Assembly: GCA_027450185.1 (NCBI GenBank)
Contig: DAIDKF010000006.1
Span: forward strand, 1 to 64,000
Length of the DNA: 64,000 nt
Source: Granulicella sp.
Lineage (GTDB): Bacteria; Acidobacteriota; Terriglobia; Terriglobales; Acidobacteriaceae
Direction: 5' to 3'
Under the pieces are notes generated by a model that ran no database searches, was not told the DNA's origin, and was given only the letters and a program-made list of their open reading frames with translations. Made by a program: the position numbers and the translations under genes. Shown here in pieces: positions 28,815 to 37,431 of this stretch. Position 1 is the stretch's first letter. The number at the start of each line of letters is the position of its first letter.

Positions 28815-29498
28815 ATGCATCTCATTGAGCTGTACAAATCGGTGCAGGGAGAGAGTTCCTTTGCGGGCGTTCCATGCATATTTGTGCGGCTGGCCGGTTG
28901 CAATCTGCGCTGCGCGTGGTGCGACTCCGAGTACACCTTCGCCGGCGGCAAGCCGTTTACGGCCGACGAGATCATCGCTCAGATCGAAGCGCTTCAGCCT
29001 TGCCGCCTGGTCGAGTTCACTGGCGGCGAACCCATGTTGCAAGCGCGCGAACTACTGCCGCTTATGGATCAACTGCTGGCGAAGAACTACACGCTGATGA
29101 TTGAAACCAGTGGCGAACAACCGCTCGCCGATATTCCCAGAGCCGTTCATAAGATCGTCGACGTAAAGTGTCCCGGTGCTGGCGCGGCGGCAAACAGCTT
29201 CCGCATGGAGAACCTTGATGAGCTCACGCCTCATGACGAGGTGAAGTTTGTTATCACCGATCGTGCTGACTACGAATTCGCTCGCGACTTCATCGGAGAG
29301 CACGGGCTTGCGGTTCGCTGCGGCGACATTCTGCTCTCCCCCGCCTTTCTGAAGGCTCCGAGCGATCAGCGCTCCACCGACAACTGCGCTCTGGACCCGC
29401 GTCTTGTGGTGGAGTGGATGCTCGCCGATGGTCTGCCCGCACGACTCAGTCTGCAGATCCACAAGTACATCTGGGAGCCACGCAGGAAAGGCGTCTAA
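28815..29498 (+). CDS. queE: 7-carboxy-7-deazaguanine synthase QueE (radical SAM)
   Basis: MHLIELYKSVQGESSFAGVPCIFVRLAGCNLRCAWCDSEYTF; VEFTGGEPMLQ. Confidence 0.95.
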   Translation: MHLIELYKSVQGESSFAGVPCIFVRLAGCNLRCAWCDSEYTFAGGKPFTADEIIAQIEALQPCRLVEFTGGEPMLQARELLPLMDQLLAKNYTLMIETSGEQPLADIPRAVHKIVDVKCPGAGAAANSFRMENLDELTPHDEVKFVITDRADYEFARDFIGEHGLAVRCGDILLSPAFLKAPSDQRSTDNCALDPRLVVEWMLADGLPARLSLQIHKYIWEPRRKGV

Positions 29499-30709
29499 AT
29501 GGCGGAGTCATGGCGTGCTTCGTCCACCTCGTGGCCGGTTCTATTGGAGTACGAGCGTGCGCGCCAGGCCACAGGTCTGCCCAAAATCTGCATGGCCAGC
29601 GCGTGCCACTGCACCGTCAGCAGCAACGCGATTCCCACCGGATGCAACAACGCGGACCAGAGTGGCTGCTTGAATCGTCGTATCCCCAGCATCCTCGGCA
29701 GATAGCTCGCGATCACGGCAAGGGTAAGCATCACACTGACAACCAAAGCCATACGCGGGTCGTCGAAGGTCGCGCCAATCACGACGTTACTCACACAGAA
29801 TGCCAACCACAGGGCAGCCACCATCACCGGAAATACTTGCCCCAGTAGCAAGAGCATCGTCAACGGCACAATGCGGGCAGGGGCTCCGAGACCTTCGGTG
29901 GCATTCTTCGCCAGCCCCATCCACACTGCACTTGCCGACTCATACATCCTCACCTCAGCCAGTTGCGTCAGGTCTACAAGGTCGGTGTCAAAGCCGTGAC
30001 AGCGAAATATTTGTGGCAGGCGCAATCCGTCGTGCCGCGTGCCGCGTATCGCGGCGTGCCCGCCACTCGCAAAGTAGGCCTCTCGATCGACTAGAAAAAA
30101 CTGTCCGCACCCTGCTGCATACGCTGGCTTGGTCGTCGCGCGCATGCGTCCCAGGGGCAGAAATCCCAGGAGGATGAAGTGGATCAGCGGCAGCAACAAC
30201 TGCTCCATCCATCCGGCCGTGATCTGTCGCGGAAATCCGGAGAGCAGGGCGACCTTCCGTGTTTGCGTCTCGGCAACGCAGCGCGTGAGCGTGTCGGGCC
30301 TGATCCTCACGTCAGCATCGAGAAACAACAGTAGGGGTGCGGTCGCTTCCTGCGCAAGCAGCCAGCAGGCATGCTGCTTCCCATTCCATCCGTGTGGCAA
30401 GCGGTGCGTCGCAACCAGCCGAACGCGTGCATCACGCAGAGCTATCTCATGCACAATCTCCGCGGTGTGGTCGGTAGATGCATCATCCAGCACCAGAACC
30501 TCAAACTCTGCGTTACGGCTGGATAAAACACTCTCCACGCAAGCACGGATGTTCTGCTCTTCGTTTCTCGCAGGAATCAGTACCGCGACGTGCACGGCAG
30601 CAGAAGCATGAGGGCCTGGCGCACGATACTGTAGCAGATTCACAACGAACACCACGGCCGGCACAGCGGCAAAGAGTAGAAGCATTCCAGCAATTGCGAT
30701 GAGGATCAT
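29495..30709 (-). CDS. Family 2 glycosyltransferase, CrtQ/HpnB-like (putative carotenoid glycosyltransferase)
   Basis: VAVLIPARNEEQNIRACVESVLSS, VLDDASTDHTAEIV, GWNGKQHACWLLAQEA, LFLDADVRIR; ATGA overlap with the upstream acyltransferase gene. Confidence 0.82.
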   Translation of the reverse strand: MILIAIAGMLLLFAAVPAVVFVVNLLQYRAPGPHASAAVHVAVLIPARNEEQNIRACVESVLSSRNAEFEVLVLDDASTDHTAEIVHEIALRDARVRLVATHRLPHGWNGKQHACWLLAQEATAPLLLFLDADVRIRPDTLTRCVAETQTRKVALLSGFPRQITAGWMEQLLLPLIHFILLGFLPLGRMRATTKPAYAAGCGQFFLVDREAYFASGGHAAIRGTRHDGLRLPQIFRCHGFDTDLVDLTQLAEVRMYESASAVWMGLAKNATEGLGAPARIVPLTMLLLLGQVFPVMVAALWLAFCVSNVVIGATFDDPRMALVVSVMLTLAVIASYLPRMLGIRRFKQPLWSALLHPVGIALLLTVQWHALAMQILGRPVAWRARSYSNRTGHEVDEARHDSAI

Positions 30710-31575
30710 TGCGGATCCTTCTTGCGCAGCATGGAGTCGCATGATTTATCCAGCATGGCCGGTTGCTCTCTGTGTTTTGTATGGTCGATGGTAAGTGGCT
30801 CCCCCGTGATGATCGTGCGAACGCGGCGGCCCAGACCATACCAGCCACCGGGTCCGCGCCCTCCGCTGAGCAGCACGCGAAACGCATCTGCATCACGTGA
30901 GATCGAATCCTTCTCCAACTCGTGCATAACATCTGCCAGGGCTGACTCGAGTTGTTGCGTTGCAGCTTCCGTACCGATGCCCGGAGCGAGCCGGATCGGC
31001 GCACCAAAGCGCAGCAACGTCTCCGGCAGGCGCTCATTCCAAAATGTGTACTCAATCGCGAGTGGCAGCAGTGTAACCTCTGGCGTGCGAGTGGCCAGCG
31101 CGCCCAGTCCGGACTTGAACAGAAGTGGATGCTCGCGAGGATCGGCGAAGCGGCCTTGCGGAGTGATCCATAGAACCCCGCCGCTCGCTAGAATTGCCTG
31201 TGACGTTCGCAGGAACTGAGCGGCTCCGCGAGCCGAGGATATCTCCACTGGGAATATCCCAAGTTTGCGAAGAATTGGATACCGCTTCAGGGCCGAGGCA
31301 TCCATCGGCGCGTAGTGCCTTCGTTTTGGCGAAAGGGCTTGGGCCAGCAGAATCGACACCATGGGATCCCACCAGGACGAGTGATTGGCATACACAATCA
31401 GCGGCCCCTTCGCATCTGCGAGCCGATCCGCATGCTGCATCATCACGGAGCGGAAGTGTCTGCGAAAGTAGGCCCGCGCGATTCGTTGAAAGAAGCGCAG
31501 CATGACAGCCGAGATGGGCGGAGTCTCGCGGGCTTGTTTCACTGAGAGCATAGCCCATTGTGGCACTAGCGACAT
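30706..31575 (-). CDS. PlsC-type (lyso)phospholipid acyltransferase-family protein
   Basis: IVYANHSSWWDPM (HX4D), LKRYPILRKLGIFPVEI, VLWITPQGRFADPRE; starts 2 nt after upstream stop. Confidence 0.85.
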   Translation of the reverse strand: MSLVPQWAMLSVKQARETPPISAVMLRFFQRIARAYFRRHFRSVMMQHADRLADAKGPLIVYANHSSWWDPMVSILLAQALSPKRRHYAPMDASALKRYPILRKLGIFPVEISSARGAAQFLRTSQAILASGGVLWITPQGRFADPREHPLLFKSGLGALATRTPEVTLLPLAIEYTFWNERLPETLLRFGAPIRLAPGIGTEAATQQLESALADVMHELEKDSISRDADAFRVLLSGGRGPGGWYGLGRRVRTIITGEPLTIDHTKHREQPAMLDKSCDSMLRKKDPQ

Positions 31576-31577
31576 CT

Positions 31578-33140
31578 TTAAGCCGCGCTGCCTGCGCTCT
31601 TTCGTCTGGAGAGGCGAGAGCGTGCGTTCTTCGCATCGGCGTCCAGGGAATCGGCGGCAATCCATCCTGACATCATCACCATTGGCATGCCGGGACCGGG
31701 ATGTGCAGCTCCGCCCGCAAGATAAAGCCCGTCCACCTCGCTGCTGCGATTGGCCGGCTTGAAGGCTCCCATGAATCGCCCATGTGAAGAGAGCCCATAG
31801 ATCGCCCCCTGCAGCACACGATAACGATCGTGGATATCCTGCGGGGTGAGCGCACGCTCAAAGACGATCCGCTCTTCGATGTCCTCACAGCCGGCCGTGC
31901 GCTTCAACTTATTGAGAATCACCTTCCGGTAGGCCGGAAGCATCTTCGCCCAGTCATGATGCGGGCGCAGATACGGTGTGTGCACCAGCACGTACATCGC
32001 CTCCCCGCCCTCGGGAGCGCTCGCTGGATCGCTCGCCGCCGTGCATGCGAGGTAGCAGGTCGGATCGGGAGCAGGCTCTCCGAGATCGTAGATGTGGTGA
32101 AACTCTTCGTGAGGATCGCGAGAGAAGACGAAGTTGTGATGCGCAAGGTGCCCGTAACGCTTCTTCAGCCCGAGATAGAGCACGACGCCGGAGCAGGCAG
32201 GCTCATACGTGCGCTTGTGCTCGAACTCCCTCGCAGCGGCTGTTCGCGCCAGCAGTTCACGATGCGTGCGCACTGCGTCCTCGTTGCTGACAATGGCGTC
32301 GAACGCATAGGTCCGCCCGGTCGTTGTGATCAGGCCCGTGGCGGCTTCATGCTGGTCGCCACTGGTGAGGATCTTCGCAACGTCAGTGTTAGTGTGGAAG
32401 ACCACGCCGAGTTCAGTCGCAAGCTTCACCAGCGCCTCCGGCACCGCGCGCGTTCCACCCATCGGATACCAGATTCCTTCCTGCATTTGCATGTGGCCGA
32501 TGGCGGTCAGGATCGCCGGCGAAGCGTCCGGAGACGAGCCCACATACTGCACCATATGGTCTAGCATCTGGGCCGTGTTGGGCTCTGAAATAAACTCGCG
32601 GATGGTGCTGGCAACGGTCTTTCCCATGCGCATCTTCAGCACGTCGCGGAGCACTTTGATGTCAAACGCTCCGCCTACCTTAAACGTGTCCTTGATGGAC
32701 CCTACCGACTTCCAGAAGAAAAACTTGTCACTGATCGTGTGCAACTCTTTCGATAGATCCATAAGTTGCATGTACTTCGCGCCCATGCCAGAGAGACGCT
32801 TATCGAGATTCGAAGACATCTTTCCCGTGTCGTCGAGGAGGTCAATCGTTGCGCCGTCCTCGAAGAAACACCGCCACTGCGGATCCAGCCGCACCATGTC
32901 AACGTTGTCGTCCAAGTCCTTTCCAGCTTCGGCGAAGATCTTGCGCAGTACCGATGGCTGAATCAAAATTGTGGGGCCCATGTCGAAGCGAAACCCATCT
33001 TCACGCAACTGTGCAGCCTTGCCTCCGAGCCACTCATTCTTCTCAAAGACTTCGACCACGTGCCCTCTTGCGGCCAGCGTACAAGCCGCCGCCAGCCCTG
33101 CCAATCCTGATCCAATCACACCTACGCGCATCTGCTCCAC
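31578..33140 (-). CDS. CrtP-like carotenoid oxygenase/desaturase (4,4'-diaponeurosporene oxygenase-like)
   Basis: FAD motif VIGSGLAGLAAACTLAARGHVVEVFEKN; DPQWRCFFEDGATIDLLDD; YVGSSPDASPAILTAIGHMQMQEGIWYPMGG; LAHHNFVFSRD; AHPGPGMPMVMMSGWIAAD, all recalling S. aureus CrtP. Confidence 0.82.
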   Translation of the reverse strand: MEQMRVGVIGSGLAGLAAACTLAARGHVVEVFEKNEWLGGKAAQLREDGFRFDMGPTILIQPSVLRKIFAEAGKDLDDNVDMVRLDPQWRCFFEDGATIDLLDDTGKMSSNLDKRLSGMGAKYMQLMDLSKELHTISDKFFFWKSVGSIKDTFKVGGAFDIKVLRDVLKMRMGKTVASTIREFISEPNTAQMLDHMVQYVGSSPDASPAILTAIGHMQMQEGIWYPMGGTRAVPEALVKLATELGVVFHTNTDVAKILTSGDQHEAATGLITTTGRTYAFDAIVSNEDAVRTHRELLARTAAAREFEHKRTYEPACSGVVLYLGLKKRYGHLAHHNFVFSRDPHEEFHHIYDLGEPAPDPTCYLACTAASDPASAPEGGEAMYVLVHTPYLRPHHDWAKMLPAYRKVILNKLKRTAGCEDIEERIVFERALTPQDIHDRYRVLQGAIYGLSSHGRFMGAFKPANRSSEVDGLYLAGGAAHPGPGMPMVMMSGWIAADSLDADAKNARSRLSRRKSAGSAA

Positions 33141-33173
33141 GGCTCCTACCCGTCAACTTTTCTAAATGAACTC

Positions 33174-34667
33174 TCAGCGTCGTGCAGACTTGATCAACTG
33201 CTTCAGCGCAGTCCTGCGGGTAGCGAAACCCTTTCCATGCATCGTTCGAATGAGGTTCGCGAACATCGGTTCATCCTCATCGCTGGTCGGATCGAGGTGC
33301 AGCATGATGCCACCGCGACGTATCAGCAGCGTCTTGACTGCGGTCATCTCGAGCAGGCCCTCGGCGCCGCGTGTAAGCCCGTAACCGCTGGCTCCGCGGC
33401 CACCGAAAGGTACGCGCGGATCGGCAGTCGGAGCGATGACGTCGTTGATCAGCACGCTGCCCGCCTTCAATATCTGCGCCAGCATGCGTGCCTTCTTCTC
33501 GTCGGCTCGATCGCAGAAGATCGCTGCGGTGAGCGCATACGGACACTGTGCATATAGTTCGGGAACGTGCAACATGGTTTCGGCTTCAATCAACGAGAGC
33601 ACGGGCGCGAAGATGTCGCTTCGCGCAATCGCCATGCTCGCTATGGCGTGATCGACGAGCACTGGCCGCTGCGCTTCTGGCTGGAAGGCTCCATGCACCT
33701 TTGCCCCTGCGTTCGCAGCTTCATCCAGCATTGTGCGCAGCCGTATGGAGGTCCCGGCATCCAGCGCGACGCCCGGCACCTGCGCCAACTCCGCATACAG
33801 AAGGGGTCTTAGCGCGGACATCGTAGTGGGTGTCGCGAACAGGCGCCGCGGCGACATGCAGACGGAGCCGCCGTTCAATCGCAAGCCAAACACAACGGTT
33901 CTTGCCACTTGCCGCAGGTCCGCGGAGGGCATCACGATGATGGCATCGGCACCGGAAAGCTCGACGACGGCTGACGTGGAGGTCTCCGCCAACTCCGTGA
34001 GAATGCTCTGGCTCGTCCGTGAAGAGCCCGTAAAGATGACCTTGTCGGGTAGCGCAGCAAGCGCCAGATGTGCTGCCTCCACGCTCTCGTCGGTGACGGT
34101 GAGCACGCCGGCTGGCAGCCCTGCATCCGCCAGCACCGAGGCCATCAACTGAGCCACAGCGGCACCGCCAGCACCGGGCTTCCACGTCACAGTATTCCCT
34201 GCGGCAAGCGCTTGAAGAACCTGCGATCCAGGGATGAAAAGCGGGTAATTGGAGGGCCCGATAACGAGCACATGGCCGAGTGGCACATGGTGAATCTCTG
34301 CTGCGACACCGGCCAGCCACAGCGGCCGTCCGCGGCGTCCCAGTCTGCGCGGAGCCAGTATCCGCTTCGCTTCACGCTCCAGAAATCTGCACCCAGCCAG
34401 CAGCGGAAGCAGTTCAGTAGCCAGTGTGTCTGCCTTGCTTCGCGCCAGGCGAGGCGAGATTGCTGTAGCAAAATCCTCTGCGCGTGAGGCCATGCGCTGT
34501 CGTGCTGCTTGAAGCAGCCGCAGACGTTGGGGTAGCGACATCGCGGTCCAACATTCCCTACCGCTCGCCGCTGTCCCGTTCTTAGCAGCACCACAACCCC
34601 CTGGGAGCAAAGAACACGGCTTGCTCTCTGCGGTCGATCTCTGGCGCTCCTCAGCAGTCGTTGTCAT
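33174..34667 (-). CDS. Aldehyde dehydrogenase (AldH-like; putative diapocarotenal dehydrogenase)
   Basis: IGPSNYPLFIPGSQVLQALAAGNTVTWKPG, FTGSSRTSQSIL, VELSGADAIIVM, NGGSVCMSPRRLF catalytic Cys; ATGA overlap with upstream gene. Confidence 0.85.
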   Translation of the reverse strand: MTTTAEERQRSTAESKPCSLLPGGCGAAKNGTAASGRECWTAMSLPQRLRLLQAARQRMASRAEDFATAISPRLARSKADTLATELLPLLAGCRFLEREAKRILAPRRLGRRGRPLWLAGVAAEIHHVPLGHVLVIGPSNYPLFIPGSQVLQALAAGNTVTWKPGAGGAAVAQLMASVLADAGLPAGVLTVTDESVEAAHLALAALPDKVIFTGSSRTSQSILTELAETSTSAVVELSGADAIIVMPSADLRQVARTVVFGLRLNGGSVCMSPRRLFATPTTMSALRPLLYAELAQVPGVALDAGTSIRLRTMLDEAANAGAKVHGAFQPEAQRPVLVDHAIASMAIARSDIFAPVLSLIEAETMLHVPELYAQCPYALTAAIFCDRADEKKARMLAQILKAGSVLINDVIAPTADPRVPFGGRGASGYGLTRGAEGLLEMTAVKTLLIRRGGIMLHLDPTSDEDEPMFANLIRTMHGKGFATRRTALKQLIKSARR

Positions 34668-36256
34668 GACGCCACCTGCATCATCGTATCGTTCATCGCA
34701 AGCTTCGAAGACACCCCCCAATGAGGTGCAACATTCAGATCCTCCAGCAGTAGTTTCGAACTGATCCGCGCGGACTGGAAGATAACGGGCAGGCCCGAAC
34801 CCGGATGCGTACCGCCGCCCGTCAGGTACATGCCCTCCACATCTTCGAAGCGATTGTGCGGGCGAAGATGCAACATCTGATCCAGTGAGTGCTTCATTGA
34901 GAACGTTGCGCCCTTGAAGAGCCCAAAGTCGTCCTGCCAGCCGCGCGGCGTCAGAATCTTCTCGGAGCGAATCCTTCGTTCCAGGTCATGGATGCCGATG
35001 CGTTTCATCTGCTGGATCGCAAGCTCGCGGAACCGGGCTGTCTCGCGCGGCCAGTCCACATGCTCGCTTTGGTGCGTGACGGGCAGCAGCACATAGAGCG
35101 TCGATTGGCCCTTGGGTGCAAGTGTTGGATCGGTGACTGACGCATTTTGAACATAAAACGAAGGGTTCTCCGATAGCCGGTGAAGCTCTTCGATATCGCG
35201 AAGATTCTGCCGGTAGTTCTCGGCCAGATAGATCGTGTGGTGTGCGACATCGTCGTAGCGCCCATCGATTCCGAGATACATCATGAACGTTGAGCAAGAG
35301 TACCTCTTACCGGCGATTGCACGGTCGCTCCACTTGCGGCGATGCTTGTTAGCCACAAGCTTGCGCATGGCCTCAGCGAAGTCTGCATTCACCACCACAG
35401 CATCAGCCTGAAGGCGGCGCTTCGAGGTTCGCACGCCGACGGCCTTGCCGCGTCGGCCCGGACCCGCTCCCTCATCGATCAGAACTTCCTCGACAGGCTC
35501 CTCCGTCAGAAATTCGACGCCCATCTCTCTGGCGATGCGTGCCATTGCAGCCGTCACCGCGCCGCACCCGCCGATGGGGTGAAAGACGCCATGCTCATAC
35601 TCCAGGAACGAGAGGATCGAAAACAGGGATGGGCAGCGGAACGGGCTCATTCCCAGATACTTGGATTGAAAGCTAAAGCCCAGTCGAATGCGCTCATCCT
35701 TGAAGTGCGTGCGCAGATCACCGTCCAGCGAGAGCCACGGCTTCATCAGCGGCAGCAGCTTGAGCATCTCGGGTCGCAACAGGTCGCTCCACTTCTCGAA
35801 CGGCGTCTCCAGCACCGGCATGAAGCTCTCAAGCTTCTTTTGATTGTGCGTGAGAAAGTTCTTGAACTCCACCGCGTCCGGAGGCGAGATCGCTGCAATC
35901 TGTCGTTCCATGCGCTCGATGTCGGCGGTTGCGTCGATCTGGCCGCCGTCGCCAAACACCAGCCGGTACTGCGGATCGAGGCGTTTCATCGGAACCTCGC
36001 GATCGAGGTCGTAGCCCGCATCGGCGAAGATCTCGCGCAGCACGCGCGGATACAGGAAGAATGTTGGCCCGATATCGAACTTGAATCCGTCCTGCTCGAG
36101 CGTGGCTGTCCGGCCACCGACACGCGCCTGCTTTTCGACGACGGTTACGTGCACACCAGAGCGAGTCAGCAGCATGGCCGTTGCCAGGCCACCTGGTCCC
36201 GCCCCCACAATCACGACACGCTTAGGCTGCTTCTTGCTGCTGGAAGTACGGTGCAT
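34664..36256 (-). CDS. CrtN/CrtI-type carotenoid desaturase (dehydrosqualene/squalene desaturase-like)
   Basis: VVIVGAGPGGLATAMLLTRSGVHVTVVEKQARVGGRT; CSTFMMYLGID; DPTLAPKGQSTLYVLLPVTH; THPGSGLPVIFQSARISSKLL. Confidence 0.85.
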   Translation of the reverse strand: MHRTSSSKKQPKRVVIVGAGPGGLATAMLLTRSGVHVTVVEKQARVGGRTATLEQDGFKFDIGPTFFLYPRVLREIFADAGYDLDREVPMKRLDPQYRLVFGDGGQIDATADIERMERQIAAISPPDAVEFKNFLTHNQKKLESFMPVLETPFEKWSDLLRPEMLKLLPLMKPWLSLDGDLRTHFKDERIRLGFSFQSKYLGMSPFRCPSLFSILSFLEYEHGVFHPIGGCGAVTAAMARIAREMGVEFLTEEPVEEVLIDEGAGPGRRGKAVGVRTSKRRLQADAVVVNADFAEAMRKLVANKHRRKWSDRAIAGKRYSCSTFMMYLGIDGRYDDVAHHTIYLAENYRQNLRDIEELHRLSENPSFYVQNASVTDPTLAPKGQSTLYVLLPVTHQSEHVDWPRETARFRELAIQQMKRIGIHDLERRIRSEKILTPRGWQDDFGLFKGATFSMKHSLDQMLHLRPHNRFEDVEGMYLTGGGTHPGSGLPVIFQSARISSKLLLEDLNVAPHWGVSSKLAMNDTMMQVAS

Positions 36257-36418
36257 GATCAAACGGGTCTCTCTTTTTCCCGCGAAGAAAACACGTGCGA
36301 GCACCTTCGAGTCTAGTTGGCCAGCACTGCTGTCCTCTATCGAAAACCGGCGCGCATGCATCGCATCAAGCATTGTTCCTCGAACGTTTCACTGCATTGA
36401 AGTGGCCGTTGAAACCTC

Positions 36419-36889
36419 TTATCCGAGCAGGTTCCGGACCACGCAGCGCACGCGTTCGACGACCAGGCCGTAAACCAGGTGGCTGGTTGCCTCGCTGGTA
36501 CGTTCGCGCGGTGTCTGCTCCTCGGCCGGCGCCGAAACCCCCATCGCGGGCAGCGCAGTCTCCTCCGTTAGCGCCATCAATGCCAGTCCGAACGCTGCTC
36601 CCTCTTTGTCCGTCGCCGCCGGATAATACTCCGCCAGCGCGCCGTAGGCGGCTCCCGCCGCCGCACCGAACCCCCAGCGAATCGTCTGCCCAGCCGTCTT
36701 CTTTGTGTTGCCATCCAGGGCATGCCCGGCCATGCTCTCTGCCAGCGCCTCCGGAGGATCCGGCTCCCCGTGCACACGCGGCGGAAAGACCATCTCCGCC
36801 ACGGACTTCGCCGCCGTTGCTGCCAGTCCAGCAACCAACCCCGCCGCCAGCCCCTTCACCAATGACCGTTGTCTCTTCGTCTCGCTCAC
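36419..36889 (-). CDS. DUF1440-like membrane protein
   Basis: KGLAAGLVAGLAATAAKSVAEMVFPPR...GQTIRWGFGAAAGAAYGALAEY. Confidence 0.7.
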   Translation of the reverse strand: MSETKRQRSLVKGLAAGLVAGLAATAAKSVAEMVFPPRVHGEPDPPEALAESMAGHALDGNTKKTAGQTIRWGFGAAAGAAYGALAEYYPAATDKEGAAFGLALMALTEETALPAMGVSAPAEEQTPRERTSEATSHLVYGLVVERVRCVVRNLLG

Positions 36890-36915
36890 GCTGTCTTCTT
36901 CCCCCGCAGCTCTTG

Positions 36916-37431
36916 CTACTCCAAAGTGTAGGCGCTCGCGGCAAATTCGGCAGCAGCCCCTGCCAGTGCCCTCATGCGAAGCGCTGCATCAATCGCCCGA
37001 TCAACATGAGGATTATCTCTGCCAGCTTCATCGATGTCCATGCCGGCCTCCACGTCTTCCTCAATGCTCTCGGCGCCGTTGCGGTCCACCTCGTCCATCT
37101 CTTCCAACTCCGCTTCCACATCCCTTTTCCTATTCTTGACAGGCCCACGCACGTTGGTCGATCCGGTTGTCCGCAGTACGCCCGCTCCAGGCTCGTCCTC
37201 GTCATCGTCTTCGTCGAACTCATCTTCATCGTCTTCTTCGTCGAACTCTTCTTCTTCCTCTTCGCTGTCCTCGGTGTCGTCGGTATCGCGCAAATCGATT
37301 GCCTTGCGCCAGGCAGGATCGGAGTCGATGAAGCTGGGATTGTTCTCAAACGTTGCAGTAGTGTCATTGCCGATCAGGCCACAAAACTCAGCAGCGCTGT
37401 CGAATGCAATGCGGGTTGTGATCGCAGTCAT
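36916..37431 (-). CDS. Hypothetical protein with acidic low-complexity tract
   Basis: TDDTEDSEEEEEEFDEEDDEDEFDEDDDEDEPG followed by KNRKR and a second acidic region. Confidence 0.65.
   Translation of the reverse strand: MTAITTRIAFDSAAEFCGLIGNDTTATFENNPSFIDSDPAWRKAIDLRDTDDTEDSEEEEEEFDEEDDEDEFDEDDDEDEPGAGVLRTTGSTNVRGPVKNRKRDVEAELEEMDEVDRNGAESIEEDVEAGMDIDEAGRDNPHVDRAIDAALRMRALAGAAAEFAASAYTLE

Follow-up and report, generated by a model that had tools for sequence, protein, structure and literature searches.

A five-gene operon of Granulicella sp. probably encoding a squalene-route C30 carotenoid glycolipid pathway of the Methylobacterium/Azospirillum kind

Five consecutive minus-strand genes (29495–36256) of a Granulicella sp. 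contig (DAIDKF010000006.1) encode two carotenoid desaturase-like proteins (CrtN and CrtP), an aldehyde dehydrogenase (ALDH), an acyltransferase (AT), and a GT2 glycosyltransferase (GT). Which carotenoid do these genes make, and from which precursor? An earlier note on the window, that is, the whole analysed stretch of 64,000 nucleotides, had read them as a staphyloxanthin-type operon making an acylated glycosyl diapocarotenoate. All five open reading frames were found in place, and the profile matches agreed with the families that had been named (Table 1). We consider, with a probability of about 0.85, that together they form an operon for a C30 carotenoid glycolipid made from squalene, as in Methylobacterium and Azospirillum. 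The gene set is already known from Azospirillum and Methylobacterium, and the Granulicella operon is a further example of a known pathway.

Table 1 Genes of the operon in the window and the type B loci of other Acidobacteriaceae discussed in the text.
Feature	Position	Strand	Remarks
crtN-like C30 (squalene-route) desaturase	34664..36256	-	530 aa; start at 36256; TIGR02734, 531 bits
Aldehyde dehydrogenase (AldH role)	33174..34667	-	497 aa; PF00171, 4e-69
crtP-like terminal-methyl oxidase	31578..33131	-	517 aa; CrtP clade in the tree
PlsC-type acyltransferase	30706..31575	-	289 aa; PF01553, 4e-12; HX4D motif HSSWWD
GT2 glycosyltransferase	29495..30709	-	404 aa; PF00535 (Glycos_transf_2), 1e-22
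Type B loci L077-L085	G022:C5, G027:C6, G017:C48, G019:C2, G029:C225, G023:C42, G008:C139, G004:C12, G024:C5		Granulicella and a related genus

The five co-oriented genes lie end to end, overlapping or nearly touching. The start of the ALDH gene overlaps the stop of crtN by 4 bp (ATGA), and that of the GT gene overlaps the AT stop in the same manner; the AT gene begins 2 nt past the crtP stop, and the ALDH gene and crtP are ca. 40 nt apart (crtP was taken to start at the ATG at 33131, a GTG at 33140 being a possible alternative). This spacing fits a single transcript with translational coupling. At 0.59–0.62, the GC content of the five genes differs little from that of the window as a whole (0.62), and there is thus no sign of recent foreign origin. 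In a scan of positions 29000–37000, no sigma-70 consensus promoter was matched, and the terminator-like matches exceeded shuffled sequences only moderately, so no transcript boundary was assigned; neither the Rfam scan nor the tRNA scan of the window gave a match. Upstream of crtN is a gene for a DUF1440 (PF07274) protein (36419–36889, minus strand), and most of the other window-type Granulicella genomes that were examined also have a DUF1440-like protein ahead of the operon. The closest named relatives of the window CrtP are those of G. paludicola, G. sapmiensis, G. aggregans, and G. rosea (74–85% identity).

The five genes are best read as a route in which a terminal carboxylate is formed by oxidation and is then glycosylated and acylated. 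Squalene would be supplied by HpnC, HpnD, and HpnE, whose genes lie in a hopanoid gene neighbourhood on a different contig, and desaturated by CrtN towards 4,4'-diaponeurosporene or 4,4'-diapolycopene. CrtP would then convert the terminal methyl group or groups to the aldehyde, and ALDH the aldehyde to the carboxylate, to which the GT2 enzyme would add a hexose as an ester and whose sugar the PlsC-type enzyme would acylate. The expected end product is a pink xanthophyll anchored in the membrane, which would probably act against light or oxidative stress. The substrates are predicted. The sequence in which the enzymes act, whether one end or both are modified, and which sugar and acyl chain are attached are presumed by analogy with the chemistry of Methylobacterium extorquens and of staphyloxanthin. 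The carboxylate, sugar, and acyl group of the product proposed in the earlier note are retained in this scheme; a product like that of Methylobacterium, an acyl-glucosyl diapolycopene-(di)oate, is, however, more likely than staphyloxanthin. In the window ALDH, the motifs of both catalytic residues are present, VELSG for Glu and NGGSVC for Cys. ALDH is the least conserved member of the set (29–65% across clusters) and is missing near some clusters.

Eight genomes of the genus have the gene order of the window (one of them with the cluster divided between two contigs), and crtN–ALDH–crtP–AT–GT in one direction was found in other bacteria at 21 of the 80 named loci (12 Acidobacteriota, 6 Verrucomicrobiota, 2 Planctomycetota, and 1 without an assigned phylum). 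G. paludicola DSM 22464 and G. rosea DSM 18704 are cultured strains with this operon. This recurrence across genomes and phyla indicates that the arrangement is not due to chance, and this kind of cluster is widespread. In Alphaproteobacteria, the arrangement is crtN–crtP–AT–GT with ALDH elsewhere or divergent, often with a squalene synthase gene downstream.

The last two genes, located directly downstream of crtP, are where the proposed pathway meets its strongest competitor, a shortened pathway whose diapocarotenoic acid stays free or is esterified in another way, GT and AT acting on another lipid. The cassette GT and AT homologues of M. extorquens PA1 were inactive on the dioic acid while its CrtP was active (PMC10448405), and several acidobacterial and planctomycete loci carry only crtN, ALDH, and crtP, with neither AT nor GT found within the stretch. 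Against this, AT and GT are translationally coupled with crtP in the window, and a PlsC-type AT accompanied the window-type (type A) CrtP in 13 of the 13 genomes that carry it among 150 Acidobacteriaceae genomes sampled. We therefore regard the shortened pathway as unlikely and retain the glycosylated and acylated product.

The source genome (2.17 Mb, 54% complete) carries tandem HpnC, HpnD-like, and HpnE genes near HpnJ on contig C1. HpnC (298 bits; cut-off 250) and HpnE (389 bits; cut-off 283) exceeded their family cut-offs, whereas the HpnD-like gene had HpnD as its best family at 209 bits, under the cut-off of 279. At this locus (L086; G000:C1:30000-46000), the three genes are preceded by an open reading frame resembling the alcohol dehydrogenase "ug2", which has been described beside acidobacterial hpnCDE (PMC5462960). 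No CrtM, CrtB, or any third SQS_PSY gene was found in this 54% complete genome. Only an HpnC/HpnD pair was also present in fuller type A Granulicella relatives (G016, 100% complete; G021, 95%; G018, 94%; G025, 94%); a third or fourth SQS_PSY gene occurred in a few cluster-bearing genomes of the family (G015, the one exception among the fuller genomes of the genus, and G094, G098, and G137). Squalene-hopene cyclase was not found in the partial genome of the window but is present in most relatives within the genus; squalene is therefore probably shared between hopanoids and carotenoids.

To place the two Crt proteins, we built trees in which the references were proteins encoded on annotated plasmids and genomes, including those of a C40 CrtI–CrtB–cyclase cluster of the same family. 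Five separate groups were obtained: CrtP (100/98), squalene-route CrtN (100/99), C40 CrtI (100/100), CrtD (100/100), and firmicute CrtN (100/100). The window CrtN fell in the squalene-route CrtN clade, apart from CrtI, CrtD, and firmicute CrtN, and the window CrtP fell in the CrtP clade, in a sub-clade with Azospirillum and Methylorubrum proteins (100/100). A quick tree of 65 rows was concordant on these placements. The window GT grouped with alphaproteobacterial and planctomycete cassette GTs (SH-aLRT 97).

These placements bear directly on the staphyloxanthin-type label of the earlier note. In a true staphyloxanthin-type operon, dehydrosqualene formed by CrtM would be processed by CrtN, CrtP, AldH, CrtQ, and a CrtO equivalent to acyl-glucosyl diaponeurosporenoate. 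The chemical logic and the five enzyme roles, a set described in PMC10448405, are the same as those proposed here, the staphyloxanthin cluster (crtOPQMN plus aldH) has a homologous CrtP (31–32% identity), and a Staphylococcus-like CrtP–CrtQ–CrtO set occurs in sister Granulicella genomes. However, the staphylococcal cluster has CrtM, and has CrtO (PF18927) where the window has an AT of PF01553; no PF18927 CrtO was found in the 54% complete genome of the window. The window CrtP and GT lie outside the staphylococcal CrtP and CrtQ clades, staphylococcal CrtN is likewise in another clade than the window CrtN, and the window proteins are only 24–31% identical to those of the staphylococcal reference, Staphylococcus equorum plasmid pC2014-2 (L095). 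The long motif stretches that the earlier note had given as common to the window CrtP and S. aureus CrtP were compared with S. equorum CrtP, which is 32% identical to the window CrtP: YVGSS, HHNF, and PGxGMPMV are kept, but S. equorum CrtP has IRNVYPDGEIVDL at the position of WRCFFEDGATIDL, a stretch far better matched in alphaproteobacterial CrtPs. Staphyloxanthin membership was rejected on the acyltransferase family, the CrtP and GT clades, and the lack of a CrtM among the genes found, and we hold it to be very improbable.

Least credible of all is a C40 pathway in which phytoene or lycopene would be the substrate of two CrtI/CrtD-like proteins: the best curated family of both Crt proteins is the generic crtI_fam (TIGR02734, named "phytoene desaturase family protein"; 531 and 401 bits against a curated cut-off of 238) and homologues are called crtI in public annotation, but both window proteins score far below the equivalog cut-offs of CrtD, CrtID, and ketolase-CrtO, the tree sets them apart from CrtI and CrtD and so does not give the C40 placement that the earlier note had named as refuting its reading, the C40 cluster of the same family (L087, G032:C95:1-9485; CrtI, a CrtB-like synthase, and a lycopene cyclase family protein) groups with CrtI, and no phytoene synthase was found in the 54% complete genome. 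The same placement corrects a common mis-annotation of such genes as crtI or phytoene desaturase in public records.

A second kind of cluster (type B) was observed in other Granulicella and Acidobacteriaceae genomes, consisting of a squalene-route CrtN, sometimes ALDH (absent between crtN and crtP in L082, L083, and L084), a Staphylococcus-like CrtP, a CrtQ-like GT2, and PF18927 CrtO. Type B CrtP is sister to staphylococcal CrtP (100/99), and the type B GT groups with staphylococcal CrtQ (SH-aLRT 100, with long branches). Type B CrtP was present in 8 of the 150 family genomes, all 8 with CrtO, and no genome of the 150 carried both tails. The association between CrtP lineage and acyltransferase family gave a Fisher p of 5e-6, for related genomes that are not independent. 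None of the six type B genomes of this sample that are at least 90% complete (G004, G019, G024, G068, G145, and G166) had more than two SQS_PSY genes. These results suggest that a squalene-based desaturase shared by both types can be combined with either of two tail modules. Acidobacteriaceae may swap whole tails (CrtP, PlsC-type AT, and GT2, or Staphylococcus-like CrtP, CrtQ, and CrtO) on a squalene-type CrtN under selection that keeps matched partners, to which we give even odds; the selection is proposed because the acyltransferase family agrees with the CrtP lineage in all 13 genomes of type A and all 8 of type B. If this is true, type B would join a staphyloxanthin-like tail to the squalene route and would thus be a hybrid between pathways usually treated as distinct, and the swap within one genus is a natural test of partner specificity among CrtP, glycosyltransferase, and acyltransferase. 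This side finding is of greater interest than the window operon itself.

Among known systems, a squalene-route C30 pathway was reportedly described in Planctopirus limnophila by Santana-Molina in 2022. Its squalene precursor is as proposed for the window, and homologous clusters were found in Planctomycetota; many planctomycete loci, unlike the window, have no ALDH or no crtN beside crtP. Carotenoid production in subdivision-1 Acidobacteria has already been reported (Pinto et al. 2020, as cited in PMC7661733).

The closest counterparts are alphaproteobacterial. All five window proteins have orthologues on plasmid p3 of Azospirillum brasilense Sp7 (NZ_CP012917.1, L088; AMK58_RS25225-25205) with 39–61% identity (CrtN 55%, ALDH 45%, and CrtP 61%), and the CrtN–CrtP–AT–GT order is identical; aldH is divergent beside crtN in Sp7, whereas ALDH lies between crtN and crtP in the window. 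Deletion of these four Sp7 genes (crtNPOQ) abolished the pigment and led to squalene accumulation as measured by GC-MS, and deletion of hpnCDE also abolished the carotenoid (PMC13274349; 2026 study). M. extorquens AM1, which has HpnCDE, shares the CrtP–AT–GT block with the window (META1p3663-3665, encoding GT, PlsC-type AT, and CrtP), and deletion and complementation showed that its orthologous GT and AT yield 4-[2-O-octadecenoyl-glucopyranosyl]-4,4'-diapolycopenedioic acid (PMC10448405). The window AT is 39–41% identical to the cassette acyltransferases of Sp7 and Methylorubrum. In Methylorubrum relatives (L150), crtN lies inside the examined stretch but ALDH does not, unlike in the window, and the ALDH responsible in M. 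extorquens is still unidentified (PMC10448405). The Granulicella operon extends a squalene-to-carotenoid pathway proven by genetics to a common soil acidobacterium, in a compact five-gene version with this missing step built in.
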